From Owenia fusiformis (lineage: Eukaryota > Annelida > Polychaeta > Sabellida > Oweniidae): a stretch of 64,000 nt of DNA. The position numbers and the translations under genes are program-made. The notes under the pieces were generated by a model. It saw only the letters and a list, made by a program, of their open reading frames with translations. It did not search any database and was not told where the DNA came from. Every line of letters starts with the position of its first letter. Positions within the stretch are counted from its first letter, which is position 1. Shown in pieces: positions 1-62,407 of this stretch. The stretch is from positions 34,650,166 through 34,714,165 of the forward strand of contig CAIIXF020000011.1 in the NCBI GenBank assembly GCA_903813345.2, given 5' to 3'.

Positions 1-97
1 TGTGCCATTTTTGTGTCACCTGCACTAAATATACAATAAGACAATAACATGTTTATGTTAAAATCAGAGCTACTAAGTTTGATTTTTGTTTTATTAG

Positions 98-2997
98 CTA
101 ACCGACCAGTTGTATGTGGCCCTGTTGACACAGTTAGTGCTGCGATACAAGAGAATTTCATGATCAGTCAGCCATCTTGTTTTCACATCATCGAGACCAT
201 ATGTTCGGATAGAGATGATGATTTAGACTGCATAATTGAACCAGGAAATCCCCAATCTGAAGAGTATGAAGACAGTTTTGTATTAGAACCATTCCAGTTT
301 GGGAACTTTGAATGGTGCCTTGGCCTTCAGGAAAGTACTATGTTTGATAGGGAGAGAATCTCTCAGTTAAAGGTTAGTTTTCCACAGGTGTCTTATTTTA
401 ACAATTACCATCCCTATCTCTAACTCTATCATGCTAATGATATGTAATCCCCATGAAGGGTTGATACACTGTTACAGCTATTCAGAATTTGAAGTCAAAA
501 TTCAAATTCAAAAGTTAAAATTGTTACACTTTTTATATAACCAGGTGACCATTTTGTCATGTTTAAGTGCCACGTCTATAAAAGGTGCCTTCCCATATAA
601 GGAATGTCATATTAAGTCAAACCAGTAATACCATGTACCAAGAAATGCTTCAAAAGATTACATTCAAATTCAAACTCCCATGAAATGGCCATGGACATGA
701 AATTTAAGCCTGAAGTAAAACCATTTGCAATAGTCATGCACATAAGCTCATTAAGATGATGTACATTCTAACCTACTCAATGGATTTATTGGTGATTTTT
801 AGGGAAAGGTGACTTGTACAGAAAGGAACAGCATACAAAAGTATAGTGACAGTTACACAGTGCTGTTGAATATCCTTGATGTTAACGACAATACGCCTCA
901 GTTCTTGAATGAGCCATATGATTGGATGGTTGGTGAGCTGTCAATAGGGGACAAGTTTGTGGTTCAGGCAATAGATAGAGATGCGGGAAACAATGGCACT
1001 GTTGTGTATTCATTCAGTAAGTATGACTCAATATCAAGCCCTGTTGCAAAGGGAGGATTTACTTCTCAAAAATTCCAGGGGAGCTCATATTTGACAACTT
1101 TTGACAATGGTGGACAGACTTATAATATTCTAGTGTTTCAAATAACTAATTTATATTGTTATGTGCACTATAGATGGCAGTTATGATAAATGGACTCCCT
1201 TTCGATGCATCATTAGAAACATTTTGGGTCTGTGCTGCCATCTTTATGAACATTCTTTCTGTCGTAAAAGGCCTATGATTTGAAACATTAAACTCTTATG
1301 ATGTCTATTGAATGTTTATTTAATTTCTTTTATTTGCAAAGATGGCAGATAAATTGAATTACATATCAGTCAACTTTGTACTTGTAATTATCCTACCGAA
1401 CAAAGTTCAAGGAGGATACTGAAAAGCTTTTAGTCCATCTGTTTGTCTCCTGTCGGTCAGGAGCGCAGCGTGAGAAGAAATTTTCAAGATGACAGCTGAA
1501 TTTTTAAATGGCTGACATTTTGCGTAAAAACATAATTCAAATACCAGTGGACAGATTTGATTCAAATTCTATATGCTGATGCCAATATCTGCTAAAAAAA
1601 TTCAAGATGGTTGCTATTTTTTCAAAATGGCCAACATTTGGTGTTAAAGATGCATAAAAAACATAATCTTTGATAACTCAGTTACCAATGAATGGATTTG
1701 GTTCAAATTTTTTATGCTGATACTAAAGGACAAAGGAGCTCTGTTCAAGATGGCCGCAATATATCAAAACGTGTTCTGTTCGATGGGATTTGCTAATCTG
1801 TGGAGTTGCTGTTTTCTAGTTATTATTTGCATGTACCTTGAGTTAAATGTGGACTTTAGAAACCAATGTGTCAATGATAATGATAACATACCACTTAATA
1901 AAAGATATAGATGTAGTATTCTTGTCACTTTGGAATCTCTCAGGCACAACACCTTCATGTATTTCATAACATAAAAATACTTCCCATCAAGTCATTCTCC
2001 CTCCTCAAAATGTCACACTAATATATATAAGAAACCCTAAAATCTGTAAATAAAAATGACAAAATTCTGAAATGTTGCTCAAAAAGTTTTAAAAACTGAG
2101 ATGTTGCACTAGAAATAACAAAAAAAGTCCCAAGTCCTAAGTTTAAAAAGTCAAAGGAGAATGCCGTATGTCTTATCTATTCTATTTAATCAGGTGCAAT
2201 ATTTCGACTTTACCATTTCTGCCTTTTAAGGAAATCCTTAAGAGGTGCTTTGTTTTTTCCTAATTTTCATAATTCGTGATGTTTTACAATTGTCATGTTT
2301 GTGAGTTCATTTTCAACTGAGTGCATACCCTCCAATGATCAAGAGCTCATGAAAGTAATTTCAGAAAAAATATTGATGTTTTTCAAAAAAATAATACACA
2401 TCTCTTTTTCATGATTATCCAGATTTGGCAGTCATACAAGCCGAAGATAACACCCTAAATGATATAGGAAAAAATGAATCAATAAGATCGCGATGTACAT
2501 TCATTTTCGTGAAAAGTGTGCTTAGTAACTTACTTCTCATCACAATATTCAAAATTCATATGCAAAATTCATTTGCACCCAATGGAAAATTCATTTGCAC
2601 CCAGTTAAAAATTCATTTGCACCCAATTTAGAATATTGAAATCATGGACTTCATGTTAAAATTCAAAAAACTTCGATTATATCTTACAACTTTCATGGAA
2701 AAGGTAATATGAGCATTTTGCACTATGCTAAAAAAACCTTCAGACCACTGTTACTGTATGTTTATTGTAAATACATCAATTAACCTAATTAAAGTATCAA
2801 TATATACAACGAGAGATGATCGTTCCAGTTCCATGCTAATATAATATAGAATTCAATAACAAACTGTTATTTTTGCAGGTGAAACAAATAGTAATTATTT
2901 GATGGATCGATTTATGGTGAATTCTACAAATGGCAGTATTACACTGGTGAAAAGGCTAGATGCAACCCTGGGAACATCATACACCATCACGATACAG
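98..2997 (+). CDS. Adhesion GPCR exons 1-3: cadherin repeats 1-2
   Basis: Exons are 98-372, 803-1016 and 2879-2997. Exon 1 has no strict calcium motif but contains the acidic turn [10 protein letters not shown] and ends [10 protein letters not shown], the position of the usual DRE cadherin motif. Exon 2 completes that repeat with [10 protein letters not shown], a textbook DxNDN linker, and opens the next with [10 protein letters not shown]. Exon 3 supplies the [12 protein letters not shown] and [14 protein letters not shown] strands. Splice sites are clean: TTAAAG/GTTAGT, TTCA/GTAAGT and CAG/GTATGG. The following intron is about 25 kb and contains two antisense genes. Confidence 0.9.
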
Positions 2998-5900
2998 GTA
3001 TGGAGCTTTTTTGTTAGTATGATATAGGTGTCCGTGGTGGATATGGGGCCAGGGGAGGACCCCCTCCCATTGGTGGGCCCCAAAAAATAAATTTAGGGCC
3101 CAAAATCTGCTCCTTCCCACATAAATTAGGCAATTTACCAAATGAACTGGCATTATTGGGCATTATTTTTATTTAACTAATTATTGCTTACTTTTAAAAA
3201 ATTAGGCCCACATTTTCAGATTTTGGGGCCCAACAATTCAAAATAGGGGCCCAAAATTTTCAGGTCTGCCCCTGGGTGTGCAATTTAGTTTAGGAGGCCT
3301 CGGATTATTGTTAGGTAGATTGGCATAACTTATAAGGAATGGCCATGGCCTTCTTTGATGAGGTGAACCTATATTAAGAGAATACATGTATACTACCTTG
3401 TATACTACCTCAGTAGTCTCCCCAGAATTAAAGCAAGTGGGCGTAGCACCCACCTGAGATTTTGAAAAGAGCCTAGCACCCACCTGAAAATCCATTGCAC
3501 CCACTTAGAAATGGGAAAAATTATGAAAAATGGGCATATTTTCACTAAGTTTGGGCTGATTTGTGAATAAGAGAATTTTGCACCCACCTGAGAAAAAATC
3601 CTGGGGAGATCATTGCTACCTGGTTCGATAATGTGAGTCTATATTATTTAGGTGAGCCTAGTTTATTAAGGTGACCATTGTGAACCTTTTTTATTAAGGG
3701 AGCATTGTTTATTAAGAAAGCATTGTTTATTAAGTTGAACACAATTTATTAAGGTGAGCCTAGTGTATTAAGATGGGCACATTTCATTAAGATAGACATT
3801 GCTAATTTCTTTTTTGCACAAAATGACTGTTTGGACTGTAAAAGGTCAAATTGATTAACTAGTTTTTTAGCCAAGTTTCTAAATTGACTATGCCTTTCTA
3901 AAAATGAAACTGAAATGATAACATAAAATTGCATTGTGTTTCATGAAAATATCTTTATAAAATGGAAGTTGGGGACATTCGCCAGACCCATAATATGTGA
4001 AATTCATTCACACAAATAACTTATACTCTGCCTACCTTAATGTTTGTTAGACTTATATGAATATGTTTTTATAAAGTACATGTATGAGTTGATCGTGAAT
4101 TTGATTGGATTAAAAAATAGGTTAATTGTGATTAAGATGGTGTTTACTGTTCTGCATAACTGCATACATAGAATTTCAGAGAGACATATCACATGAACTT
4201 GGGTTATTTATTTACTACTTTATTTATTTTTCCTGTTTGTATTCTAAAATATGTGACAATAATGTTTACGAAGGAATTAAACTTAAATTACACGTATAAT
4301 GACAAAAAATAAAATTTTGGGGATTTTTCATATGTTATTTATTTCGCATTTATTAAAAATGCCATTCCGAAATGTCAATGATAAGACATTTCAAACAATA
4401 GTAATAACTTAATAAATATAAACATTTTTGTGGTATACATACCATACGTCATTATTTTACAAAATAATTTTGAATGTGCATAAACATTAACAGGACGTGT
4501 CTATGTATCAATATTTGTGGAAAAACATATTTGATTTTGTTTTGATCTTGTCCCCCTCCATACATTAAGATTATTTCATTTGATATTAGAACAAAAATAA
4601 ATATCTATAAAAAACTAACTATATTTTTCCACAACTTTTGACTTGTGTATTTAGATTTGTTCCTGTGTACTTTTAACCTGTCTGCACTTTATAGAGCATT
4701 TCTAAATAGGGTATTAGTATTACTCAACATTGTAACATAAAATTGTTGGCACGGAAACAATGTCTGGAGTTTTCAGTGTCACGTTTCCTGTTAAGCTTTA
4801 CAATTTGTTGAAAACATGTTTTTAAAGTCCTCTTTATTTCATTGAACATGTAATGTGAAATTTCTAGGTCTATATTGAACAGAAATTTTAATAATTTTTT
4901 CGTATTGATTTTTTGTGATCGTAGCCTGCGGGTTTCGTTTCAATTTTACCCTTTGTGCATTTTCATTTATGTTGTGTTATCTTAGAATGAAATTAGTTTG
5001 ATCAAAGTTATGTCACAAGTGCATTATTAAATATCTCTTTATATTAATACATATATTTTAGTTCATTTTTTATTACTTCATTTCTAATAAATAAATTATC
5101 ACTTTTAATTTACAAGATGTAGATAACATTTTAAATGTCTTTTGAGTCTTTATGTGAAGTCTCTTTCACCGGGTCCTAAGACATTACAAATAGATGGCTC
5201 TCACCGTGGCTCTATACTATGTAATGTTCCCGAAGATTTATCTCTGTAAGCCATGTCATGAATGGCTTCAGAGTAGGGCGTGTCTCCCTGGCAACCATAT
5301 TCTTAATCTCCCCGGCAACCATGTTGTTTTGGATTTTTCCAGAGGTCCCTATGTGAAATGAAGGCCATATGTATGCTTTAGTATATTCTTCAGTTGGAGA
5401 AGTGAGATTTCAATGATGTCATATCGTAGTGATGTCAGCTGACTCCACTTTTCATAGGTTCCAATGTTAAATCTAAATGCCATGCTTATTGTGGGTATTC
5501 TCATTTCTTCTCAGCTTAAGCCATCAGTTGATCTGGATAGTCGAAAGATGTTTGAGAGATGATGGTGGTGATGAGATTGCGTGTTTGTAGTTGGGTGACA
5601 AGACGCTTTAAATTCTTGCACACTGCATTGTTTTCTACAACATTGTTTCATAAAGGAATGTTCCTGAGTGTGTGTTAGATGTGCTGGTTCAGAACCTGCA
5701 AATAAAAATTATTAAATGATTATTTCTTGCAGAATAGCCAGAATTGTCTCAATACTATAATATTTAGGCTTCTGGATGTATAACTGCCTGTAATGTCACC
5801 ACCAACTGCCTAAATGTAATGTCACCACCGCGAAGTGGTGATATATTGTTTCAACCACCATTTTTTGTGACATCAACATCTGTCACAAAAATCTGTAACA

Positions 5901-8900
5901 AGTGTTACAGTTTTCCAAGTAGTGATATTTGTCACATTTTAAATAACCTCTGCTTATGTTTTATATTAAAAATCTTATTGTTAATTACATTCTCTAGGTT
6001 TTTTTGACTAGTTTTATTTTCTACTATAAATTTTTAAGTATTATTACTTTTGAATACAAATTATTTACATAGTACTTTGTATATTTATATTATTATCTTA
6101 TAATGGCAATTAATGTAAGCAAGATGAATTCAAAAAAATATTTATTTAATTTTAAAATAAAAAAAACAAAGTTCTCACTTACCCAACATGAATTGACAGA
6201 TCATATTTCTAACTTGTCTAATATTTCTTCTGCAACTATTATGTTGAGCCTCTTGGTGTTTATGAAACGGTCTTCCTTCTGTCATTTGCAACATAACAAT
6301 GATGAGACAAATTCCTCCGAAAATTATGACCTTCATATCTACCGGCAGCAGAGGTTTGTGCCTCGTGTGAAACTTATGACTCAAGTTGCGCAGAGTTACA
6401 TGTATCAGCCCAAATATAGGTCTCTTAAAGTGTATACGTGAATTTGTAATCTTATTATAGCTCTATTTGAATATATTGTTTTCAGAAGGTGTGTAGGATG
6501 TTCTAAATCAGAATAACAAGTGTGAAGAAAGGGGTCCTCTCAAAAATATTTTGAGTGCAAGTACACTCATTTTATTTCATCCAGAAATGCAAAATGAGTG
6601 CAAATGTCCTCAAATGTTCAAAGATTCAATTTGATTTCTTTATTACTTGTCTTCCTCATACTTTGGCAAGTGTCGGGGTAGAGATGACAAAGCCGTATAA
6701 ATGCTTTATTTTAAATAGAAATAGAGATTTCAAGTCAAATGATTTAACATGTTTAAATGATTTATTTCACTTACAGATTTGAATTCAGATGTTGTGAAGT
6801 ATAAAGTATAAGATGGGTGTCACCTGGGTGTGTACTTTGATATATTAAGAGTTTGGCCTAGATTTTGATATATTCCCCTCTCTGATATTTAAATTGTGTC
6901 AAAACAAGTTGTTTATGAAAAAGTTGGGCATTTCAACAATCCAAACTGATTGCCCTTGGGTGAAATGGCATGGTGTTAAATTTCAAATATTTTGCGAGTA
7001 GAGTGGAAAAAATAAAGAATGAAGTATTATGATATGGAGATATTAAACTAAACTCTGCAGAAATGATAGAAACTCTGGATTGTGAAATGTTAGAGGAGAA
7101 TGAATGGAATGAACTTAATTGAGATTTTTTTCTGAGACACTTGGACATTTGAATGTGATTTTATTTGTTCAAACAATAGATCTAGCTATTGTTGACTTTA
7201 AAGATGCCATAGAATTGAGATAGCACATTTAAATAGAACATGCTGCATGGAACTTGAAGGGCCATTTGATTATTTGATTAATTGGATAAAATAATTTCAA
7301 TTTCATTCTGATATTATGGAGTACTCTTGAAATATGTAGATTTCAAATTAAAAATATTCTTTTCTGTAAACTAAATGATCCAGCCTGGCCTATTTAGGAG
7401 TTTTTTTCTGTCCCTAATTTGAATTTTAAAGTTTAATGACATTTAGATCTAGATCCTTAAAGAGTTTTGCTTTGTCATGGTCTGTAAATATTATCTTTTT
7501 CAAACCGTTTTTTCTCTTAAATTGAATTCATTATCTTTATCTTTGATATCAGGTGTTGAGAATAAGAAATTGACACTATCAAATTGTCAATATTTTTGTG
7601 TCCCATATTTATTTTAGATTTTAATGACATTTATATCATTAATATTAAGATCCTTAACCATTTTGCTTTGTTATAATTTGTATCTTTATCGTGTCATATT
7701 TATCCTCCAATTGTTATTTTATTTTATCAGGATTGTATTTTCCTGTAACCTTTGATCTTTATTACCTGTTGAGATTTATGCATTATCAAATAGTCAATAT
7801 TTTTGTGTCCTATATTCTGATTTTAGAGTTAAATAATTTAAACATTTTGCATTGCTATTGGTGGATGTTGTAATTTGTTAATATGATCTTCTTTATCATA
7901 TAATTTTTATCCTTAAATAGTTTATTTTATCAGAATGATTTTTTGCTGGAATATTTGATCTTTAGCATCCCATGCTGAGATTTTGAAATTGACATTAATC
8001 TAATTAGAAAACGATCCAAAAAACAATAATTTTTCATATGACAAGGTAAAGTGTCTTATTTATCATAATATATAATTATTATTTTCATGTATATTTACAG
8101 AGCATGTGCCTCTTGTGTGATAAATTTTCATTGCCAAATTTTGGGTGTAAAAGTCCTCTGTTAATTTGATAAGAATTTATATAAGTGAAGACCCCATACC
8201 CTGATTCTTAATCAGAGACTCTTATTATAGCAGATAAGATAAGATCTTCATAAATTAGAAAAAGTTTTTTTCATCCTTTTATGCATCCTCCTAAGCAGGT
8301 ATCCAGAATCCGTACCTCCTTCTTCCCCCTGCTATAACCAATTTGGAAGCGCCCGATTAAACTGAATCACGTGATCTTATTATGCGCAATGACTTATACA
8401 TGATTTCTGTCACAGTTTTGCGACATCCAATCAGATTGCGAGTTCTTAATCGGGGAAAGGCTAACTGCTTATCGCAGGGGGTAAAAAGAAAGAATATATT
8501 CTGGATTTTGAAGCCCTGTGATCGGAGGATGCCTTTTATGAGGCTTTCAATGTGAAACATATACAAGCTTCTTATTTGCAGAAAATGTAATGGTGATTGA
8601 CAGACTACATATTTTAATTAGATATAGGCTATAGAATTATCTATAATTCAGAGAGGGCAAAGGAATACTCTAGCATAGGGTAGATGTACTCTATCTTTGA
8701 TATCCAGGCACCAAGATTGCCAGGGGTAGTTCAGTGCAAGGCTTCGAGAAATGGACTCTTCAAATGAGACAATCTTATGTTCATTGAGGCAATCACTCTT
8801 TTCATTGAGACAACTGATCTTTCCACTGAGACAACCCACTTTTCATTGAGGCAACCCCTTTATTTTTTGAGGCAACCAATCTACAGTATTGTGATTTTCA

Positions 8901-11900: not shown

Positions 11901-14900
11901 AGACAAGGACACTATACAGGGACACTACACAGGGACACTGCACTAATAGTACTTTTCATAACACTGCCCATTCTTTATTGGTATAAAATAATTAAATAAG
12001 TGATTGACCGCACATCAAGCATCAAGCAAATGTATTTTTATTGGTGATTATTACTTGAATTCTTTCTATTAAATACAATATAATGAGTTCATAAAACTAA
12101 ACTATTTTAAGATATATATTTAATTTACCATGACAAGTGTTTGTCTGTGTTTGATTAAATTTTTTTTTTTATTATGGGTGGACATACAAACACATAAACA
12201 TATTATATGAATGAAACTGTTGTTAATTGCTACTGTTCATGAGTTATGAATGCTTTATATATTCACATTTATAAATATGATAAATCTTTGAAACGCATAA
12301 AATAAAAAGATTTAGATTTATTTAAGATGTTAATACATTTGTAATACACAAAAAATAGAATTATTCTCAGAATTCATGCATCTTGTCGATGAGTGTATTC
12401 TTTATTGGACTCTGATTTCACCTTAGTAACAACCTTTCTGACATATGAAAAACTTTGTAGTGCCACAATTTTTGGCTGATGTACTTGTGAGCTGATTTGA
12501 GACATCATACTTCAGTGTGTAGCAATATGTGCCACCAGAGGTTCCGCTACCACTACTTTTTCCTCCTCCCGAAGATTTACCACCCTCTCCTCCTCCTAAA
12601 GATTTACCACTTTTTCCTCCTCCCGAAGATTTACCACCCTCTCCTCCTCCTGAAGATTTACCACCTTTTCCTCCTCCCGAAGATTTACCACCTTTTCCTC
12701 CTCCCGAAGATTTACCACCTGTTCCTTCCGTAGTATCATTAATAAATTCATAACATGTAGCTGCAAAAAATAAAACATTAATTGTTTGAGAGAAATGCAA
12801 GAACTGCAAAGAAAAAATTCATTGTTCAAAGCTCTCTATCTATTACAGAGAGGGTAATTTATACAGAAGTCGGTTGACTATGTGCAGAGGAAGGGTATCT
12901 ACTAGGGACAGTTGTTCACTAGAGAGTGTTCACTAAGGCAGGGTTTATACTGTACTTAGTAAGTAAAGGGAAATTAAAGGTGTTTTATTTTATAGTGTAT
13001 ATTTTATAGGGGTTTTAAGTAATTCTATTATACTCACGGTCACATGCAAAAGAGTATTTCACATATGCAGCACAAGACCAAAAGTATCTGTTCTGAATAT
13101 ATCCTAGAAAATAAAGACATAAACAGACCATATATTTTGGGAAAAAATTTTTTTGGGTTATTGAATTTGATTAATATTTTTATCTATATAGTTTAGATCA
13201 GCTATGTCAGTTCTGCACTTTCGCAAAACATTTTGAAAAACAATTTTGTCACAGTTCAACATTTAATAGAAACGTTTAAGATTTTGAATAATGTATTATA
13301 CCATAAAATGTTTATTCACATAAAAATGTGAAAAATATGATCTACTCAATTATTGATAATCATAATCATGAAAATTACATTAAAAATTTCATCATGTGGA
13401 TCTATCTGAAAGTCTGGGTTTTCCACTAAAGAGATTCATTTAGTAACCCTAGGTTACTTAACCCTAAACAAAAATGTTCACACTTACAGTACCTGAAAAA
13501 AAGATACTTTTAATTTTGACATTTTGATGACCTCCGGAGACCATCTTCAGAAAGTTTTGCTTTTAAAATTCTTTTTTGGTAAGTGTGAGAAGATTTTCGA
13601 GTTGTCTGATAAGTATTATGATGATAATGAGGCTATCAATAACAATTACCTGCATTCGAGATAAATTGATCAATATCATTATAGCAAGCATCATTGTTCC
13701 AGCGAACAAGATGTGCACCCTCCATCTGGCATATTGCCTCTGCTTGACTCCATGTTGCTTCAAATGTATCATAAATCTTCACACAGCCAACCTTTAATAA
13801 AAATTGGTGTTTCATATTTCATTAATTATCGACAAAGCCAACCTTTAACTAAAATTGATGTTTCATATTTTTTCACACAGCCAACCTTTATGTTTGATGT
13901 TACAGGGTGTCTAAAAAAAACAGGACCGTAAGAAAGTTGAATAACTCGGTCAATTTTGCATATTTTGCCTTGAAATTTCAGAATTATTTAGTTCATTCAA
14001 TGTGAATTTTGTTGTGAAAGTTTGATAATAATATACTAATTGAGTCAAAAACTACAGCTCCTTACAAAACATGCCCCAAATGTGCAAATCTCATCTCTAT
14101 GCACAATTCAATCCGGCGAACAAAGTTGTTGATGATCCTCCTACACACATGCCTTTCTGAATAAACAAGTTTGTTCCAAGGACATTTGCTACTGGGGCTT
14201 ACATCCTCCTGATAAAGTGTTACAGCATCCATTGCATTCTGAACAATGCACTGCCTGGGTGGCAATGAGGAAACATGGAATCATCAGTCCCTTTTGGTTC
14301 GAAGGTGACTGGGGACTTGCTATCACCATGAACAAGGACCAGTAAGTTCTCACCAAGTTTTGGAAGTCACTAAGCACCAGAAGGGACATCTAAGGAGATA
14401 ATTAAGCAGTGGTTTCAACAAGCCAATACCACCCCAACACTGCAAATGATATGCTGAAATGGTTTAGGCAATGCTTTGGTGGTCAGCTCATCAGTTGCAG
14501 AACGCAAACCATATGGGCAGCTCATTTGCCTGATCTAAATCCCCCAAATTTTTATCTTTGAGGATTTCTCGAAGCCAATGTGCATACTGACAGGCCCCTA
14601 ACAATCTTAAGAGGGCAATAACTACCCCAATATTTATCATCCACATTAATGTGTATAGGTAGGGGTCATTAACAACTTTGTTCGCAGGATTCGTTTGTGC
14701 ATAGAGAGAAGTGCCCACTTTGAGCATGTTTTGGAAAGGACTGTAGTTTTTGACACAATTAACAGATTATCATCAAACTTTCAGAACAAAATCCACATTG
14801 AATGAACTAAATAATTCTAAACTTTTTTACGGTCCTGTTTTTTTTGGACACCCTGTAAGAACAATATATGCGATACTAAAATTGCTCCAACCATTGAGTA

Positions 14901-17900: not shown

Positions 17901-20900
17901 CAAACTAGATTTTGTCTCAAAAATTGAAGTTTCTTTTTGAGCTGTCACACTGAGTAGTTCACTGTTTGCCACTACTTTGAGGCAGAATGTGGGTTACAGC
18001 ATGGGTACAAGGTGGGCAAATCAAATAGTTTTACAGAAAGATATCCCCCACCACATCAATACAAGTTCAAATAATTAACCAAAATTAATTGTTCAAATTG
18101 CCACAGGATGGTGAACGGTGAGCCCACACAGCTAATGTGACTGCTACTTTATGTAAGAAACTTAGTCAATATTCACCTGATTGCCACATCTGAGGCAGTT
18201 TGATCCAATATAGGTATATCCATTAGCACAACTACATCCTGTGAAAAGATATTAATATATCAGAATTATGTTACAATAATTTTTCATCTATTGCAATTAA
18301 ACACATAATTAATTTTAGCGCCCCAACTGACACAAAATTGAAATGGTTACTGGGAGATGAGGCATACATCTTTGGGGGGCACGAATATGGTGTTTTATTC
18401 GACTCTTTAGTAAAAAGCTTTTTAAATAAGATTTTAAGTAAATATTAACATACCTATGTTTTAATTCTTTTTAAGACTCATTTTAGTTTGATAAAATGTT
18501 GTTTTTAACCAACATGGCATTTTGGATATTTTCGATTAGATGCACCTTAATGTAAGAGTGCCACTGTTAAAAAAGTGTATATCTAAATAAATAAATAACC
18601 AAAAATTACGTTGTTCCAAAATAGTGCCTGGTTTTATAAAGGATATAACCCTTTTCAAGTGCTGGACTCTTTGAATAAGAGAATGACATTATATTAGAAG
18701 ATAGTCAGAGGGTGTTTGTATATGGGTCTTTTTCAAAAGTTCGTCACTTTCTTTGTTCCAGAAAATTGCCTTTAAAAGATAGTTTAAGTGGAAATTACGA
18801 AATAACACAGCAAAATGTAAAAAATCTAACGTGCGTGACGTTTTTGATGAAATCAACAGTTACTTTTGTAATACAGACGATAAAATACATTTAAGTCTCT
18901 CAAACTGTGTAAATGCATATGACAAAAAAATCGTTTGTCGATATTTCATGAATTTATGCATTTAAGGTTTCTCAGCTAATTTTCAATAAGCTAACGTGCG
19001 TGACGTTTTTAAATATCTGCGTTTTTCATCTGCTATCCTGAGTTTCTCATATAACATGATATATTAGGAATAAATATGTTTTCACCAATCTAAAGCTTTA
19101 AATAAAAGTTTTACCCTTGTAAGTTTTGTGTCATAAGGCATTAAGCAAGGTTTTTACTAAAAACTAACGTGCGTGATGAATTGATTGTGTTGACACGAAA
19201 TATGTTAAACTCAATAATAAGTGTACATCTTAGTGATAAAGTAACAGCAGTCGATTTCTTAGTGTATAATACATGTTATACCTTGTCAAACATCATACGT
19301 ATTATATTTTTAAACTGGCAAAATATGGATATCCGATTAATACAATGGTTTAGGACTTATTTCAACCACAGAAGTAAATTATTCTATAACGTACAGTATC
19401 TTGCTTCATGGTCATTCCATTTCCCCAGCAGGATACGTTACAATTAACATTAATAGCTTTCCTCAAATTATTTAGTTTGAAGAATGACATAGCGATATAT
19501 TGTTATGTGTATTCATTATTTTATTCAAGAAAATGTTTGCTTGAATTCTATGTGCGTGACGATTTTAAGTTGACACGATTTTAACAATAACAATAGTAAA
19601 ATGTAAATGTAATAACAATAATAACTATAACAATAATAACAATAGTAAAATGTAAATGTAGTAACAATAGTAAAACAATAGTAAAATAATAACAATAACA
19701 ATAGTAAAATGCTAATGGACTTCATGAGACCAACATATCTTGTAACTGGCACAAAACAATTACTTTGAAAATGTAACAACCACAAGGTTAACATTAAGAC
19801 GGTAATCTATCTACTTACAACTGACTACAATACAATACAGTTACATTTTAAATAGCACTGTTTGAATTTTATACATTTTATATCAAAACCAGTGGAAATT
19901 TAAGTTACTATTGACATTTGATCATCATGATGATCGGGATTTTAATTCAGGCTCCTCAGGTTTTGATTTTTCTTCCCTCACAAAAGTTTATCAAATTCTG
20001 ACAAATTGGAAAAAAGCCTTCCAAACTTAAATAAGGAGCGTGTAACTGATAACAAGAACAGTGAAATGTGACAACGTTTGTACACTTGAATGCTAAAATT
20101 GGACTATGAAAGTCATAAAGGTTCAATAATGTTCATCATAAATGTTCATTTGTCGGTGCCATGGTTCCACATTCTCTCAGTAAGTCAGAACCCATCTCTG
20201 CCCAGCTTCCTTGGCCTGGAAAGTAATGTCATAAAATATTGACTTCATTTTCATTTATGTTTTATGGCTATTTCATAACAGGAGAAATATAAGGCATCGT
20301 ACAGATCAGGAGTAATTGTTATCCAATTATTCAAATTACTGTGTACAAACCTGGTTCCAAAATTCACTTCTCCTTATTTACACATTTGTGGCACGTAAAG
20401 TGCATTTGGTCGATGTTTCCGTATCTCGCACATGACTCGTGGGCCCATCTCTTGCAGCTGGTACACATAATCTATAAGTAATGTACGGAACAATTAGGAA
20501 ATATCAGAATTTTAATTTTTGTGTCAAAGTAACCAATGCAGTAAAATTCCCTGTGTTATTTATATCATATAATGGACTTTCACGATGGAACTGTTGCTTG
20601 GAAATAAAAATTAAAGGATTATCAATATTGAGAATGTAACAATTACTTTACATACCCATTGTTCTCGTTTCTTTGGGTCCCTCATATCATTGTATTCAAA
20701 ATCACATTTCACACACTTGTTTTCATCGTTCTCTCTCAACACGGATCTCGGCTTTTCCTTCACACCTTGCTGTGCATCGTCTCTAGGCTCTCTAGACTGG
20801 GTTCTCGCATTTCGATCACGTTTTGTCTTGGCTTTTTTCACTGGTCTTGTATTCTCCTGATTTGTCAACTTTAGGCTTATATCACCTGACCAACCATTCA

Positions 20901-23900
20901 CCGCACATTCAGCTGTTGTTTCGCCTGTGGTACAAACCTTGCAGAAGCAAGAGTACTCTCTCGTTTGGACCACCTGTGGCATTATACCTCTGACAGCGTG
21001 GAACTTTCTTGTTCCCTTTAAAGTTTTTACATTTGTTCTGTTTGATCGAATCCTGTTTCTAACAGTTTCCTCTGAAGGAACATAGAAGAAGGTTCTCCTG
21101 TATTTTTCACAGCTTTCTTTGTTTTCTTTTTCTGGCTTCGTTTTTGTTTTTTCGAGAAAGTTACAGAGTTCATGAGCATTTCGAATGACTACTTCTCTTG
21201 CTTTCATTGCCCTCGATGCAGCACTTTTGCATACTGCACTTTCGCCATCGCTCGGACTCTTGCCGTGTCTGGAGCCAAAATAGTGTTTTTCTGTGATAAT
21301 ACCATAATCTTCAAGGCTATAGCTTGCATCGGCAAAGGATGTCTTGCATTTGTACTGTGAACTGCAACCATCGGTGAAGTGTATCATTCGTTTGACTTCA
21401 ACATCTCTGTTTTTCTTGAGATGGTCAATGGCCTTCTCAACAAAAACTCTAACAGCGTGAGAATCGTGCTTAAGATCGTTAGTGATGAATATCAAGGCCT
21501 CCGTCGTAATGTGATTTTTACATTGGGGACAATTATAGTATGTGACAATAGGGTGAATGGTGGCTTGCTCATGCTGCCAGTGAGCAGCCTGGGCCTCGTC
21601 CTGAAACACGCAAAGATAATTTTGAGCAAAGTCCATGCACATTACAAGCCAAAGAGGTGGCAGCTCCTCAATAAGCTTCGAAAATTGTGTACTTTGCCAT
21701 TTTGCCGCATAGAGATGTTCTGAATATGGCATCAAGTCGGATTCAAGGTCTTTCAACAACTCACTCATTTTTACAGTCTTCTTTACAAGTCCTTTCTTTG
21801 TTACATTTTCGCCTTTTTTGTTCTTGGATAAACAGTTTTGCCAGACGTTATAATTTATAGATTCATTGAGGTATGGCTCAATTGGCTTCAGTTGACTGGT
21901 CATCATAGTTTTGACCCCACATTCTTCACAGGAGCGCTGAACACATGTTAAGCTTTCTGCTGAACAAACTGTTGCTTTGCTTAGCTTATATTTATTTTGT
22001 ATTACTTTACCAAGGTGTTCATCCTTAATAGAATGATTGCGGACGAATGACTGTATGGCTTTGATTTTTAGTTCAACGTTAGCACAGTATTCACAGTTCT
22101 TTTGTTCTTCATAACGTTGTCTTCGTCTTTCTAATATTCTTCGTTTCTTTTGTGAGCTCATGTTTAACCTTTCCTGCCTTTTCTTCATCACCCAATATTC
22201 ACGTTTCTTCATTTGTGTCATCAGTTCATTAAAGCGATATGACAAATCTTATGAGTCTATATTCCAAGTGCTACATATGAGGTGTCAAATGACAAACATC
22301 TCCTAAGCTTATTCCATTGATACCTAGGGCTGTATTGAACGTCGAACGTGACGAAGCATCAAGTCCATAAACGCATTAATTTTACTATATTCGGGTTCTA
22401 CAAGCAACGTGTTTTTGTTGGGAACTGAATATATGTTGAAAGCAATACAAGTTATGGGGAAAATATGTCGAATTATACGAAATACTTACGTCTTCTGCTA
22501 GCCAAAATGGCCTCAGCCGGGACGAATCTAAATTGCGAATGGTCTATGTGGAACGAAACTGTAGCAATTTCTATCAATGCAATATCATTTATGGAATAAA
22601 TAGTCTAAATAGTCGATCAAAGATCATTTATATAATTCAAATAACCATGCATAAAGAATTTGTTTTCAGTGAAGTCGAGAAGAATTGAGTCCATCTGAAC
22701 CGACGCTCAATCACTTTGTCCATTGGTGTCAAACGTCACGCACGTTAGAATTTTGTTGTAGTTCTATTCTATTTTCTGCATACAATAATTGACGAAATTT
22801 TCTGAACTGTGAAACTGAGATTAGTAAAAGCAATAAAAATCAGTGCTTGGCACTCCTGACAAGACTATTGACATAACCATTAACATAAGGACAAGATGTA
22901 CATCTTTTATAACGTGCGTGATTGCTTGACACGAACACTTCTATCACATAAATTAAGCTATGGTGTCAAAAAACAGATTAATGACGAAAACAACCACAAT
23001 ATTTGCTGATTCCAGATGAATGTTCCCTTTCTTACATTTAGGTGTGTGTGAAAATCGTTTTATATCAACGAGAAATTTAAGTAATTCGTTAATGCGAGAG
23101 TATGACACGATAAAGGACTACATGCGTGGCGGATTAATGTGCGTAACGAAGTTTGACACCAATCTTCGAGCAACTTATAAAGACCATATTGCCGCTTCAG
23201 AGTTGAAACTTACCACTGGATCTATAACATCTCGTAAATGTGTAAATAAAATACAATTTCATTTACACATGTGATCGCGTATTTTGTATGAAAATAGGCT
23301 TTCTAACGTGCGTGACGAGTTTGACACGAAAAACGATAATGCACGCAACTGAGCATAAAAATTATTTTCCATATATACTTCATATAGCATTGAACACAAT
23401 GAGAGCTCGGTGTATCCTCTTTTCGAAAAAACACTCATCTGACTTTTTGTAAAAATAATCAGCCTGGAGCTCATGAATAACGTGCGTGATGGTGTTTGAC
23501 ACCATGCATCACGCACGTTAGTTCTAAATTGACATTGTCTTATTTTTCGAGTATGGTAGATTTATTATCTGAAAACAAAATGATTCACATAGATAACCTA
23601 TGTAGACTTGTGGCAACACATTTTTCCGCCTCATTTCCAGAAAGAAAGATCCAGGGGATGTATCTCTGATGTACCCCCCAAAATTGCTTAAAAACTGCAA
23701 AAACAGCTGGACACGAAGCCCAAAAAAGTGAATAACTTCAACAAATTTTAACATTTTCACCTGATATTATCCTCAGTATCTTTTTTACCTCTACTGAGTT
23801 GAATAAAATAATCGTTTTTGGCTATACTTCTCAAAATGTTGAGATATCGAGCATGTAATATTTGAACTTTTGAGTGACGAACTTTTGAAAAAGACCCATA

Positions 23901-50900: not shown

Positions 50901-53900
50901 GTTGCTCAACCCCCTTGGCTACATTTACCAAGAACTATTAATTCCCAAGATAAAATTGTGTGAAAATAAACGAAAAAAAGATCAGACACTTGATAATAAC
51001 TATGAATTTATTTATTCATTAACGATATCAATTAACAATATATTTATTTGTTTAATTACAAAGTAAAAAACTTTTACTCCATAAAAATGGATCTAGAATA
51101 CTGTAGGACCATTCTTGGTTTGTTTTAGCCCCATCTCGAAATATGAAATACTCCAGCCGTCATTACATTTAACTATTAAAGGTGTCACTGGCAACTGTTT
51201 GTATGTAAAATCTAGACATTTTCAAAAAAACTCCCATGGAAGTCCATGGGTAAGTGAATTGGTGTGTATGCATAGTTTATCATTTTGAGATTTGTAGCAT
51301 TTAACACAGCAAGATAATTTAAACCCTTTTCACCATCCAAAATTGAAGTGACGATTACGCCATCATCTTCCTGTTTCGAATTGGGAGTTGCAATAAACCA
51401 TGGCTCCATTGGGTAGTGATTTGGTTTATGCCATATAAGGTCATTTTTAGAGTTGCATACACTCTTCTTTCCAATAGTCCAATTGCCATAATGGACACCA
51501 TCTGATTTATATGCTGTCCCCCAAAAGTAACAATAATTCTTCATTCGGAAGTCTTCATTGATAGTAGGGAAGTCCAGATGATCCAGCGCCTTGTTTAGAG
51601 GTGATGTACTTAGTTTTGGTTGGACGTCCACTTGTCCTGTTTTTAGGTTAAGGTAATAGCGCACGATCTGTCCATTTGCAACAATTGCATTTCTTTTATC
51701 AACATTTAGCATATTGTCCAAAGTAAGACCCGTCATTTGATCGAAATTTGGTAATTGTGTAGCATCCGCGACAATGGTTGTAGAGTTCACTTCATATGAG
51801 TTGATACTGTGTAGGAACAATCCTTTAGCATTAATGTCATGTGTTTTCAGCTCAGTTACCTTACCCGTGGCTAATTCAACAACTTTAATGTACATTGGGT
51901 TGTCATGGTGACATTGGAAAGCTTCTTTCATCTCAAAAGTCCCAGAGAAAGCAAAGTGGAACAATTCAAAATAGCAAGTCCCCTCAAAGAATAAAACATA
52001 CTTTTCTGTTAGCCCAAAAGAATGCATATATGGAATCTGGGAAGTGCCGATTTTCCAGCTGGTTAATAAGCGGGGTTGGATGTCATTTCCCAAACGAATC
52101 ACATTGAAGGTGCTTTGACCGACTGGATTAAGCTTAATGTAATATGTGATCAAGTTATCCTGAGTGCCCTCAAATAAAGGATGGGCTGAACTGAGACTAG
52201 GGACCGCCATTTTATTTGCATCCATCATCATGTCCAATAAGGTTTTCTCATCTTCGCCTACTAAAGGAGCGAGGTGTTTTACGAGGGTGAGATTGTTTAT
52301 GTTGATCGTATACAGGTTCCACATATCGTTAAGGATCAAATAATTAGTATCACTGGAGAGTTGTTTTGTGAGAGCTTTCACATTGACTACATTATTGTCC
52401 ATACCTTTCATCATGCGCTTTACTCTCGTTAAAGCATTTTCTGGTGGCACTGTGTCTCCAAATAGGGTATAGGGGGCAATAGTGTTCAATTTGACCGAAT
52501 CCCTGTAGTAACCAGTCTGCTGTAGTTTAGTCGAGAATGTAACAGATTTTCCATCACCAGCAAATTTCCAAGAGCTTAGCTTGCCAAATCCATCAAATGC
52601 ATGGTTCACCCTTTTATTACCCATCTCAAACTTGCCAGGTCCATTCCTCACCTAACAAAAAATAGAATATCAGTTTAGCACTTCTGTCTAATGAATCTCA
52701 AAAGCTGTCTGTTTGCTCTTTCGTTCATCATTTCGTACACATGACAGGGTGAATAAAATATTACGTTTTCAATCACATTTGGTGCAAATAATATCGGCTG
52801 ATGCATTTCGGGCAAATTAGCTCTTCTCAAGGTATTTTCAATATGCTCATTCGATTCAAAAAGGTGTGCATTTTTGAAATATATTCTTTGATAATTATCA
52901 GATTTGATTAAAACTTCATGGGCTCCACCTAATGGATGAATATTAGATTTCACATCTTCATCTACAGTATGAACACTTTTTTGCACTCAGTAATGTAAAT
53001 ACAAAGCCTTACTGCACATGCACAATCAATAGACAACTAACTAATATGTGTAAAAACTTACCAAAGTACCTTTGATCCACTTTGGTATCCCACCTGGCAA
53101 TTCAAATCTCAGCTTCACATCCTCAACCTCTTTCGTCAAACTAGTGAATAGCAATTCATAACCTTTTGAATCTTCTTCTTTCGTTACATTGGAAACAGTT
53201 TGAGCGATTGCAAAGAAAGCTACTAAGATGCTTAATCGGAACATGATGAACATATTCTGTTGGTGTAACGACTGGTCTCCTTTGGACTTCTTTTATACTC
53301 CACTTGCTTGCAATACATAGATCACTCAGTTATAAGGTAATAACCCGGGGGTAATAACTGGGACTACTTTACACAATTTACAGGGTGATCCCAAAAAACT
53401 GCAACCTTAATGTTGTTTTATATTGCCAAATAACCATGTATCAATGTAATGCCTTGGTCACATTTGCTCCAATTTTCACTACAGCGCCTGGCCGATTGAG
53501 TATTTTGTACAAAATTGAATACAATATTGAACAAAACACTCAATCAGCCAGGCGCCGGCCGATGGATCGGAGCAAATGTGACCATGGCATAACTGAGGCT
53601 CAAGCTCTTGACATGGTTGATGCTCAAAAATGACGGGTCCCCCTGAACGTATTTGCACTCATGTGGAGCTGTAGCTATACAGCTATTGTGCGTATTTCTA
53701 TAGGCAAGGTTATTTTAGTATAGTCTTGACAAGAGTCATGGTGTTACTTTTGATGAGTAATGTATTACTAGTAATCTAGATTTTGTAAGTTTGAGATTAT
53801 ACCAGTCAGCCTTGAAAATCTAATATCACTATTTTTACTCATGTCAATACAAGATCACTCTTGCCTTATGCCTTTTGAGTAAAATATTCACTCAAGTGAA

Positions 53901-58357: not shown

Positions 58358-59399
58358 CTACTCATATCGTTCCTTTAAATCTTTAAATGGTTCCATCAAT
58401 TCCTCATATATGTCATCCTCATATGTCATGAATGATTTCAAGTTTTCTGGTAGTTTATTTTTGTCAATTAAATCCTCAATAGCGGCCGTATAGCTATGAC
58501 CTGGTTTTCTGATTTCAGAAAATATACATTGTCTGGCATATTTCTGTAAACTTGGTAACTTTTTTGCTTCCATAATTGAAAATAATGATTCTCTATCCAC
58601 TTTCTGTCCTCTGTCCTTTGTTAGATCCTCTAACAAAGTCCTGATATGTTCCTGATCTGAGTAATTGCCGATAGCATGAAATGCCAGCAGTATAATAAAG
58701 CAAATGTCATTATGGTGTTCAGCAGCAATGTCAAATGCAGAAATGTCAATATCTGCACCATGGTCAATGAGATTGTACATACTTTCCTCACAGTTGCTGG
58801 ACTCTGCGGTGCGAAGTAATGGTGTGAAACCTTCCTCATCTTCTTCATTCACATCCGCACCATGTTTGATCAGAACACCAATACACTCGTGTCCATGTAA
58901 TCTTGCCGCATGCATAAGGGCTGTCCATCCTTCATTATCTTTCACATCGGTCGAAGCACCATGCTTAAGCAATTCACATACAGGATCTTTACAGCCATTC
59001 CCTGCAGCAATCATAAGGGCAGTTAGACCTTTATGGTCAACATCATTTATGTCAGTGATTTTGTCAATAGTCATACGGATGTATCCAACATTATCTTCAT
59101 AAGCAGCATGCATTATAGCAGTACGACCATCATTATCTTCTATAGTGATATCTGCGCCTTTATCCAGTAATAACGCAGCTATTTCAGTACGGCCTTTCGG
59201 ATCTAGCATCATACAATTCATCAAAGCTGTCATTCCTCGGTAACCAATGGCATTGACATCTGCTCCATGTTCTACCAATATAGGCGCACAGTTCACACTA
59301 TTATACCTGGCAGCTTCCATAAGTGCTGTAGAACCAGTTATTGGTGAAGTTGTGTTTGGGTCAGCACCAGCAGTCAATGCTTCATTCATTAATTCTACA
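58358..59399 (-). CDS. Ankyrin-repeat/SOCS-box (ASB-like) protein, main coding block
   Basis: 343 codons from MNEALTAGADPN to the stop. About seven ankyrin repeats are visible by their GxTALMxAA and HGADVN motifs (GSTALMEAARYN, GMTALMNCM, GRTAIMHAAYED, GLTALMIAAGNG, GWTALMHAARLH, GFTPLLRTAE). The C-terminal stretch LPSLQKYARQCIFSEI, then KLPENLKSFMTYED, matches a SOCS box (elongin-binding BC box and Cullin box). It would act as a substrate adaptor of a cullin E3 ligase in the cytoplasm. In this assembly the first 25 codons are 3.6 kb away, beyond a retrotransposon insertion, so this allele is probably broken. It converges tail to tail with the receptor gene. Confidence 0.85.
59388..59399. repeat. 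Target-site duplication, left copy
   Basis: ATTAATTCTACA here and at 63034-63045 are identical 12-mers that bracket the retrotransposon, the mark of its insertion into the ASB-like coding sequence. Confidence 0.9.
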
Positions 59400-59401
59400 A
59401 T

Positions 59402-62400
59402 GGAATTGACATTATTGGACTTTGTGAAGTTGGAAACTTAACCCAAGAGGTAATTAATTCTGAGTATTCTATTGATGGTCATTCTCATGTATACTTAAAC
59501 AAGAATCGAGGACTTCTGATATATGTTAAAGATGACATACCTTTTAAAGTAAGATATGACCTCATGAATGATCAGGGTGATTCCTTATGGATTGAGTTAA
59601 CCATTAACTATAAATCTTACCTTTATGCAATATATTATAGATCACCTTCTCAGTCTCAAAATGATGCAAATGATTTTTGTAATCGGTTTACAGCTTCATG
59701 TAATCTGGCACTTGATAATAACCCTGAATCAATTTTTATCAATGGAGATTTCAATGCGAGATGTAAAGAATGGTGGGCCTTGGATAATGAAAACACTACA
59801 GGAAAATTTTTATTTGAATGTATCGAGGAACTTGGACTTGTGCAACTCATTGATGAACCGACTCGTATAACAAACATCAGCAGATCATGTATAGATTTAC
59901 TCATCTCAAATAACCCTGACATCATTACAAATACTTATGTCTCTCCTCCAATTGGCAACACAGACCATTGTTCAATAAACACCGAGTGCTTTCTTGGTAA
60001 TCAAAAAAATCGCCCGTATTCAAGGAAAATATGGAAATATGATGAGGCAGACATTAACTTAGTTAACAATGCAATCCGTGCGGCAAATTTTGATCATTTA
60101 ATAGACACTACCAACAACTTTGATTACCTTATCAAAATATTTTCTGGAAGTCTACTTGCAATTTTCACAGACCTCATTCCAAACTCAGAAATTGTTGTAA
60201 AATCAACTAACAAGTCATGGTTCACAAGTGACATTAAAACATTAATTAATAAAAGAAATAAATTGCATTATAAGTATAGAAAAACTCATAATGACATGTA
60301 CCTTCAAAAATATACAGATCAATGTAAACTGGTAAATGAGGCTATAAGTGAGGCAAAAGAGGCAATGGAATCAAGATTGTACCAAAAATTAACAACTCAT
60401 AGATATGGAAGTAAGGGGTACTGGTCAATTATTAGTAGGCTCCTAGGCAAATCAAAAAATAGTAAAATACCCCTCCTCAACGATGCCAATGGTAATAATT
60501 ACACTGATAGTTGCGACAAAGCAAATTTATTGTTATCACATTTTATTGACAAATACCATAATAATTATAATCATGGAAATGAACCATTTATTCCAAGAAC
60601 CGATATAACATTTGACCTGCTCTCTACCAATGACAGAGAAGTCTATAACATTCTACTCGGCTTAAATATTAATAAAGCCACTGGCCCTGACATGTTGAGT
60701 AATAGAATGCTAAAAATGGCAGCACCATCACTTTCACCTATTTTATCAAAACTGCTTAACAAAATGTTTACTTTGAATCAATATCCTCAACTATGGAAGG
60801 TCGGTCATATTGTAGCTATTCATAAAAACAAAGATAAAACAGATGTGAAAAATTATCGCCCAATAACACTCCTGTCTTGTATTTCTAAAGTCGCCGAGCG
60901 CATTATTTTTAAAAGACTCTTTGATCATCTCATTTCGCACAATTTATTTTACAATCTTCAAAGTGGTTTCCTGCCAGGACATAACACACAGGCACAACTT
61001 CTAAGTATTATTGACCACATAACAAATGAAATTGAAAATGGGGCTAATGTAAGAGGGATATATCTTGATATTTCGGCTGCATTTGATTCAATGCCCCATG
61101 GGCTACTATTAGGAAAATTGAAAATGTTTGGTTTTGGTCCGAATATCCTGGAATTGATGAAATCATATTTACTACACAGACAAGTGAAGGTGGTATTAGA
61201 TGGTCATGAGTCAAACTTATCTGAAAAGGGTTATATCAATTCCGGAGTTCCTCAAGGCTCGATCCTGGGGCCCCTCTTATTTTTGATCTATATCAATGAT
61301 TTACCTGACAATTTGAATTCAAAATGTTTCATCTACGCAGATGATACCTCAATTTACCAGTCATTCACAGCTGAAACAGCAACTGAAATGAACAATGCCC
61401 TACAGGAGGATCTCAACCATATTTTTCAATGGTCTGAAGTATGGAAATTAAATTTTAAAGCTTCTAAAAGCAAAGATTTGACCTTTTCCAATCCAAAGAA
61501 ACGTGAAATTTTGACCATAGATCTTTCTCTCGGAAACGACATTATACCAAGAGTAAACAGCCATAAGCACTTAGGCTTAATCCTAGACAGAAATCTCACT
61601 TTTGACCTTCACATAACTGAACTTGGTGCAAGAATAGACAAACTTTTAAATCCACTGAAAGCGCTCTGTCAGAAAATAAATGGAAAACATCTCGAAACAA
61701 TCTTTAAATCTTTTATCCTGCCACTTTTTGACTATGGTGATATTTTATATGGGTGTGCAAACACAACAAAATTACAGTTATTAGATCGACTTTACTATAA
61801 AGCCGCTTGCATTTGTTCAGGTACTCTACATGGGACTTCGACAATTAAAGTGTTGAATAATTTAAATTGGCCAACATTAACAAAGAGGCGTCAATATCAC
61901 AGAAGCATTTTCATGTATAGGGCACATAACAATATGCAGCCCTCTTATGTTCTTAACATATTTGAGCCTCTCAAAAGAAACCATGCTTATGGTCTAAGAA
62001 ATCAACTGAGCTACACAATTCCTAATAAATCCTCATTTTCTAATAGATCTTGCATATCAAAAACACTGACTGAATGGAATAAGCTTTCACCTGAAATAAG
62101 AAATTTACCTACCCTTAGTATATTCAAATCCAGACTTAAAATAGATCTATTCAATGACGATGTTACAAATTCATCAGATCTCTCCGTTTCAAGAAAACAA
62201 GAAATAATTTTCAATAGAGTGCGCTGTGATCTCATTTTTAAGGCTCACCTTTACGCTCACAATTTCACTAATATAAACTCCCCCATTTGCCAGTGTGGAA
62301 TGGATGGTGAAACAACCAATCACGTAATTTTTCACTGTAATCTAAGATCAACATTTTGGACAGAATTTGAAAATGAATTAAAAAATATGAACATAGAATA

Positions 62401-62407
62401 TTCTTAG
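59402..62407 (+). CDS. Endonuclease-reverse transcriptase of the retrotransposon (5'-truncated)
   Basis: The apurinic-type endonuclease part has AIYYRSPSQS, FINGDFNARCKEWW and GNTDHCSI. The reverse transcriptase has the KNYRPITLLSC, GVPQGSILGPLLFLIYINDL and CFIYADDTSIYQS blocks with the YADD catalytic site. Near the end lies a Cys-His cluster, CQCGMDGETTNHVIFHC. The frame is open for about 1000 codons. It stops at 62407 only because of an inserted palindrome; the natural end continues after 62726 (see next entry). The endonuclease is missing its N-terminus, so the copy is not autonomous. Confidence 0.92.
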   Translation, partial: GIDIIGLCEVGNLTQEVINSEYSIDGHSHVYLNKNRGLLIYVKDDIPFKVRYDLMNDQGDSLWIELTINYKSYLYAIYYRSPSQSQNDANDFCNRFTASCNLALDNNPESIFINGDFNARCKEWWALDNENTTGKFLFECIEELGLVQLIDEPTRITNISRSCIDLLISNNPDIITNTYVSPPIGNTDHCSINTECFLGNQKNRPYSRKIWKYDEADINLVNNAIRAANFDHLIDTTNNFDYLIKIFSGSLLAIFTDLIPNSEIVVKSTNKSWFTSDIKTLINKRNKLHYKYRKTHNDMYLQKYTDQCKLVNEAISEAKEAMESRLYQKLTTHRYGSKGYWSIISRLLGKSKNSKIPLLNDANGNNYTDSCDKANLLLSHFIDKYHNNYNHGNEPFIPRTDITFDLLSTNDREVYNILLGLNINKATGPDMLSNRMLKMAAPSLSPILSKLLNKMFTLNQYPQLWKVGHIVAIHKNKDKTDVKNYRPITLLSCISKVAERIIFKRLFDHLISHNLFYNLQSGFLPGHNTQAQLLSIIDHITNEIENGANVRGIYLDISAAFDSMPHGLLLGKLKMFGFGPNILELMKSYLLHRQVKVVLDGHESNLSEKGYINSGVPQGSILGPLLFLIYINDLPDNLNSKCFIYADDTSIYQSFTAETATEMNNALQEDLNHIFQWSEVWKLNFKASKSKDLTFSNPKKREILTIDLSLGNDIIPRVNSHKHLGLILDRNLTFDLHITELGARIDKLLNPLKALCQKINGKHLETIFKSFILPLFDYGDILYGCANTTKLQLLDRLYYKAACICSGTLHGTSTIKVLNNLNWPTLTKRRQYHRSIFMYRAHNNMQPSYVLNIFEPLKRNHAYGLRNQLSYTIPNKSSFSNRSCISKTLTEWNKLSPEIRNLPTLSIFKSRLKIDLFNDDVTNSSDLSVSRKQEIIFNRVRCDLIFKAHLYAHNFTNINSPICQCGMDGETTNHVIFHCNLRSTFWTEFENELKNMNIEYS

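Follow-up and report, generated by a model that had tools for sequence, protein, structure and literature searches.

A candidate insulin-type gene on the minus strand

A 64-kb window of the genome of the annelid Owenia fusiformis (G000:C11:34650166-34714165, assembly of 498 Mb) was analyzed for a candidate peptide gene of the insulin family, and all coordinates given below are those of this window unless another locus is named. The candidate is a two-exon gene on the minus strand at 5511-6336 (C11:34655676-34656501). Its exons, 6336-6183 and 5695-5511, yielded a spliced product of 112 residues when translated base by base. Exon 1 (6183-6336) begins with the start codon at 6336 and encodes the signal-like start, the B-chain region and the first base of the codon split by the intron, ending at a GG/GTAAGT donor. 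It holds 154 coding nucleotides directly ahead of GTAAGT, and the intron is therefore in phase 1. This intron (5696-6182) is 487 nt long with 25.5% GC, runs from GT to AG, and ends at its 3' side in TTTTTATTTGCAG. Exon 2 (5511-5695) encodes the remainder of the C domain, the A chain and a 28-residue tail, and closes with the stop codon at 5513-5511. Ranked by a rough generic weight matrix, the donor fell within the top 0.8% of 6799 GT sites in the window and the acceptor within the top 3.8% of 6660 AG sites.

The predicted signal peptide covers residues 1-21 up to a putative cleavage point (6274-6336, minus strand) and was recognized by a hydropathy test only, with a mean hydropathy of 3.26 over the best nine residues. 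The B-chain core, C-x11-C (Cys35-Cys47, 6196-6234), is seen in the translation and in the residue tests against insulin-like peptides of the same genome described below. The A-chain core, CC-x3-C-x8-C (Cys70-Cys84, 5598-5642), was found as a pattern match, and the best genome match listed for the Pfam model PF03488 spans 5598-5666. It is followed by a C-terminal extension of 28 residues containing SHHHHH (5514-5597). The precursor thus comprises, in order, a signal-like start of 21 residues, a short N-terminal piece with the B core (26), a connector (22), the A core (15) and the tail (28). Its scaffold cysteines are residues 35, 47, 70, 71, 75 and 84, with one extra cysteine inside the signal-like start, and a MAFFT alignment placed all six in register without guidance. 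Candidate polyadenylation hexamers, identified by pattern match only, lie about 400 nt past the stop codon within 5069-5109 of the minus strand (ATTAAA from 5109 and AATAAA from 5074).

The original prediction, made from the letters of this DNA, had joined two exons at consensus splice sites into a signal peptide, a C-x11-C B chain and a CC-x3-C-x8-C A chain, with a phase-1 intron between the chains. Each of these elements was reproduced here, including the GT and AG ends, the 487-nt intron and the 112-residue translation.

Joint occurrence of the pattern in simulated sequence

An order-4 Markov model trained on this window was used to generate 64-kb windows, so that the null consists of simulated sequence and not of real genome sequence. 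In 25,278 simulated windows, the scaffold pair with a phase-1 intron gave 530 hits, and 106 when a signal-like start was added. Signal, scaffold and consensus donor coincided in 3 hits, and in 2 with a pyrimidine-rich acceptor as well. The scaffold with a signal and four core hydrophobics gave 6 hits, and signal, donor and core together gave none. A looser simulation allowed any phase or a single exon and CC-x3/4-C, and here windows were counted: of 17,375, 229 had signal and scaffold, 5 had the donor as well, and none had both donor and core. An earlier run of 400 windows had produced scaffold and signal once and never with the donor. Stop-free frames of 51 and 60 codons are jointly about 0.3% likely in sequence of this window. 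Taken together, these counts make chance a poor explanation of the joint signal, scaffold, splice and core pattern, and the claim that such agreement is very unlikely by chance held in both large simulations.

Insulin-like genes of the same genome as a yardstick

A genome search with Pfam Insulin (PF00049) returned, among the matches listed, seven exon matches at six other loci, four above the cut-off. Both exons were readable at five of these loci (L012, L013, L015, L016 and L017). L017 is a canonical insulin, GIVDKCCRIGCDFPTLESYC, and L013 is relaxin-like, with CGRNVPKLIIIAC and DQCCRNGCKLNQLLGIC. Searched exon by exon, L013 (21.2 bits) and L015 (18.9 bits) both remained under the 23-bit cut-off of PF00049. 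Splices at these loci were chosen by the sum of donor and acceptor scores with phase left free, and the best-scoring splice was in phase 1 in all five genes, as in the candidate; that of L012 was weak, with a score of 1.5 and an intron of 6.1 kb. Annotated O. fusiformis proteins support two of these manually assembled models: P0037 falls entirely (152 residues) within the L015 model, and P0036 agrees with the L016 model over residues 31-217, its first 30 residues coming from an exon further upstream.

Two further observations were made on this set. The sixth locus (L010/L014, G000:C2:20075000-20084999, reverse strand near 5790) contains part of an A chain, KRGIIEKCCKQACSLDS, which is cut off by a stop codon ahead of the final cysteine, and it looks like the remnant of an insulin-like gene. 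L012, L015 and L016 share an extra A-chain cysteine (CECC) and a TCN cysteine ahead of the B chain, and they probably form four disulphides.

The candidate shares with all five readable genes a B-chain exon, a phase-1 intron, an A-chain exon and six cysteines, and its best residue matches among them are L012 (score 21) and L013 (score 17). It differs from them in other respects. In each of the five own peptides the B chain contains CG, and the connector, 52-68 residues long, includes one or more KR pairs, whereas the candidate has no CG and its 22-residue connector has no dibasic pair. The extra cysteines that L012, L015 and L016 have ahead of the B chain and within the A chain are likewise not present in the candidate.

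Similarity beyond the cysteines was scored with BLOSUM62 on hand-placed chain windows. Against the five own peptides, the candidate B chain scored above its shuffles in all five comparisons (p 0.006-0.030) and the A chain in four of five (p 0.001-0.05; L015, p 0.09). None of 20,000 shuffles of the candidate residues attained the summed score, and the best single match had p 0.0005. The hydrophobic pattern, which had been noticed beforehand, contributes to this own-genome result. When seven known non-Owenia peptides were compared singly with A and B combined, insulin (p 0.003) and DILP5 (p 0.008) stood out.

A random-scaffold test was then built from simulated sequence, with 730 A motifs and 67,685 B motifs combined into one million pairs. 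The summed score of the candidate against the own five was reached by 1.7e-5 of pairs and its best match by 4.4e-4. In the same test, L013 scored against the other four own peptides gave 1.9e-5 for the sum and 7e-4 for the best match, and the other four peptides were stronger. By this sequence-based measure, the candidate appears about as insulin-like as L013, the most diverged accepted member.

Evidence against the assignment and alternative explanations

The results collected in this paragraph weigh against the assignment of the candidate, which is known here from genomic sequence alone, to the insulin superfamily. Its locus is not among the matches listed for PF00049 in the search of either the product or the genome. 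Pfam Ins_beta (PF03488) gave 17.1 bits with the product, under the curated cut-off of 21, and 17.5 bits genome-wide with an E-value of 2.49, although this was the best of the four matches listed. A comparison by hhalign with 11 known peptides aligned the A chain only, with a probability of 27%. At E ≤0.001, a whole-genome search matched only the candidate's own two exons. Codon usage, trained on 1684 codons and hence of low power, gave no support: the scores of the two exons were equalled or exceeded by 78% and 82% of stop-free controls, and the score per codon was -0.19, compared with -0.09 to 0.08 in four own insulin-like genes. The A-chain DNA pattern by itself is not rare, being present in 19 of 100 window shuffles. 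By position-specific scores from ten of these known peptides, the B chain scored at random (p 0.46), the A chain had p 0.014-0.020, and A and B together had p 0.055-0.059. The own-genome comparison was chosen after this weak result, and five of the seven known peptides compared singly had p >0.1. In the random-scaffold test, the fraction of 1.7e-5 rests on just 730 A motifs, with the A sum reached by 1 of the 730; for B alone, the sum was reached by 0.34% and the best B match was ordinary (6.7%). The near-invariant glycine of the B chain, usually in CG, is missing. The weight that had been placed on the B-chain core residues was accordingly too strong, given the missing CG and a B chain at random against the ten known chains. 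The insulin-superfamily reading itself is supported, mainly by the own-genome insulin-like genes; residue similarity beyond the cysteines is seen with those five peptides and is weak to absent with the ten known ones.

In the reading frames surrounding the other three PF03488 matches listed (L028-L030), no insulin scaffold was seen. A sequence search of the PDB with the product gave six matches to E 10, the best at E 0.23 and none named insulin, and Rfam at gathering score and a tRNA scan found nothing. In a search of 5.8 billion proteins, restricted to those of 62-196 aa, five shared words with the product and none scored at E ≤10; because of this length limit, the search would overlook a fused gene model. 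When the candidate was combined with the five own peptides in a profile, this retrieved two proteins from 282 candidates, both from O. fusiformis (P0036 for L016 and P0037 for L015). L012, L013 and L017 had no listed protein in that search; they may be lacking in the annotation, or the search may miss them. Since only two of the five own peptides were listed, the absence of the candidate from the database says little about the candidate. The description of the gene as unannotated therefore stands within the protein search made, by shared words among proteins of 62-196 aa, and is qualified by the profile search having listed just two of the five own peptides. Judged by titles and the openings of abstracts, none of the papers listed in literature searches dealt with the candidate peptide, and the main text of a study of Owenia nerves (PMC10880339) contains neither "insulin" nor "relaxin".

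On balance, we consider it probable, from the sequence comparisons above, that the candidate is a real, divergent insulin-superfamily gene on the chromosome-scale contig C11 of O. fusiformis. Most likely it is one more member of a large known superfamily. An accidental assembly, in which AT-rich non-coding DNA would by accident present, in the right order, a hydrophobic start, a pair of cysteines, both splice sites and a CC-x3-C-x8-C frame, could draw on the frequency of the A-chain pattern in shuffles, on codon usage that offers no support, on a B chain at random against known chains and on the lack of a listed homologue among the 5.8 billion proteins. It is unlikely, because the joint pattern with core hydrophobics never arose in either simulation and because so small a fraction of random scaffold pairs reached the residue match to the own-genome peptides.

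A decaying pseudogene, descended from the family and no longer expressed, would account for the missing B-chain glycine and convertase sites and for the low codon score, and the truncated A-chain fragment at L014 is a hint that relics of the family persist in this genome. However, the sequence is strongly diverged, no close paralogue was found in the genome search at E ≤0.001, and yet the signal-like start, the two reading frames, the donor and acceptor and every one of the six scaffold cysteines are intact. A copy long free of constraint would be expected to have lost at least one of these, and decay is thus quite improbable. The weak profile scores and the same missing glycine and convertase sites would also fit a real secreted cysteine-rich peptide outside the insulin superfamily with convergent cysteine spacing. 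Such convergence would leave unexplained both a phase-1 intron at the superfamily position and a residue likeness to five own insulin-like peptides that extends beyond the cysteines, and we hold it to be very improbable.

Placement within the superfamily

Of the insulin-type Pfam models, nematode Ins_beta alone gives a match to the candidate, below its cut-off, and the beta-type, short-connector insulin-like peptides of C. elegans are single-chain. Vertebrate-type relaxins carry the B-chain receptor motif R-x3-R-x2-I/V; the candidate has R at the first place, Q at the second, and hence lacks the motif. It has the six-cysteine scaffold of the insulin superfamily (insulin/IGF/relaxin) and the phase-1 C-domain intron between B and A, and it lacks the dibasic convertase sites of two-chain members. 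Such an intron, in phase 1 and within the C domain, is described as a hallmark of insulin genes (PMC8286064; PMC11863921). Genes of the Dilp7 type have an additional phase-2 intron between signal peptide and B chain (PMC11863921), which is not found in the candidate, where both lie in one open exon of the model. With the cysteine and intron features present and the two-chain, Dilp7 and vertebrate relaxin features absent, the candidate can be placed in the superfamily without a subfamily.

Relaxin/Dilp8-type precursors, including an O. fusiformis relaxin-like peptide, resemble the candidate in having one phase-1 intron between the chains and a B chain soon after the signal peptide (PMC11863921). 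The same source describes a Gly-Ile motif in the A chain of that peptide; this motif is present in L013 (LLGICD) and absent from the candidate, which also lacks a dibasic site. L013 is therefore likelier to be the published relaxin-like peptide, and the candidate, on its sequence, probably is not. IGF and single-chain members (PMC8286064) share with the candidate the lack of a convertase site between the chains and a C-terminal extension past the A chain. They differ in that sequence similarity to IGF is very low and the late phase-0 intron of IGF (PMC8286064) does not occur in the candidate model. Arthropod gonadulin (PMC7357564), likened to the candidate by description only, has the six cysteine positions of insulin and is too different for easy recognition.

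Proposed function and implications

The signal peptide would direct the precursor into the secretory pathway, where about 21 residues would be removed. Three disulphides of the usual family arrangement would be expected, Cys70-Cys75, Cys35-Cys71 and Cys47-Cys84. As the connector has no dibasic convertase site, the hormone would most likely remain a single chain ending in the C-terminal tail, like IGF. An unrecognized small exon within the intron could supply a convertase site, which the model does not need. We propose that the product, once secreted, may serve as a ligand for either an insulin-receptor-type kinase or an LGR3/RXFP-type receptor. O. fusiformis would be expected to have an insulin-receptor kinase. 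LGR3- and LGR4-type receptors are reported from this species (PMC11863921).

A more specific possibility, which we regard as doubtful, is that the candidate is the first representative to be recognized of a rapidly diverging lineage of single-chain insulin-like peptides in oweniid annelids, one that has lost convertase processing and the B-chain CG turn. If true, its receptor or secretory route may differ from that of the KR-processed peptides of this genome.

Because insulin-family ligands are small, divided between two exons and weakly conserved, automated gene annotation can overlook them, and tallies of ligands versus receptors in such animals then become unreliable. The group that includes O. 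fusiformis is sister to all other annelids (PMC8111721), and an additional ligand in this species thus bears on the number of insulin-type peptides in early annelids. The comparison made here, in which profile matches from the same genome serve as the standard for judging a more divergent member, can also be applied to other genomes.

Genomic surroundings

The plus strand upstream of the candidate carries a signal-peptide-like exon (open reading frame (ORF) 40-423; no Pfam match), a cadherin-like ORF at 803-1186 recognized by eye and without a Pfam match, and a cadherin-like ORF at 2860-3027 (Pfam cadherin, E 0.0018, 19.1 bits, under the cut-off of 28.8). These exons (40-3027) are the putative upstream part of a host gene. 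Further along the same strand, 28372-49649 contains cadherin-like, FN3, Ig-like, GAIN and 7TM exons of an adhesion-GPCR-type gene, assigned by Pfam and by eye. Above the Pfam cut-offs were 7tm_2 (E 2.3e-33), GAIN (E 5.9e-8) and fn3_2 (E 3.3e-7); the cadherin-type and Ig matches lie below cut-off and were assigned partly by eye. The GAIN/7TM end is located at 45-49 kb.

The candidate lies on the opposite strand in the 25-kb gap between these plus-strand cadherin-like exons. It is plausible that exons 40-3027 and 28372-49649 would form one gene, with the candidate nested in a receptor gene; alternatively, the upstream exons may belong to a short cadherin gene ending near 3 kb, in which case the gap would be intergenic. 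The description of the candidate as antisense in a receptor intron is supported in part, by plus-strand cadherin-like exons on both sides and by the GAIN/7TM end; their union in a single gene is conjectural, and other minus-strand exons occupy the same gap. These are C-type-lectin-like exons with a glycine/serine/lysine repeat at 12423-13818 (one piece with 16.5 bits for Lectin_C, below cut-off, the other with no match) and a VWA exon at 24.9-25.4 kb above the Pfam cut-off.

Just upstream of the window, L003 421-7298 (plus strand) has a second signal-like exon followed by cadherin-like ORFs that resemble 40-3027 by eye, and the two are perhaps tandem cadherin-type genes. L003 8811-9560 (minus strand) contains a single cysteine-rich open frame of 249 residues, in which a lustrin-type repeat is weakly matched (E 9.7e-6, narrowly below cut-off). 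A cysteine-rich open frame of 545 residues at 20611-22248 (minus strand), without a Pfam domain above cut-off, perhaps derives from a mobile element. A carotenoid oxygenase gene at 51212-53292 (minus strand) has a 479-residue exon 91% identical to the annotated O. fusiformis protein P0001 of contig C1, with nothing closer than P0001 among the 35 proteins listed, and this C11 copy may be unannotated too. The match of this oxygenase to Owenia led to the rejection of a sponge origin of the DNA, which the domains of the receptor had suggested. Finally, an open frame of 1004 residues at 59393-62407 (plus strand) contains endonuclease and reverse-transcriptase domains and is LINE-like; read from stop to stop, it overlaps the end of an ORF on the other strand (58358-59437) that appears by eye to be ankyrin-repeat-like.

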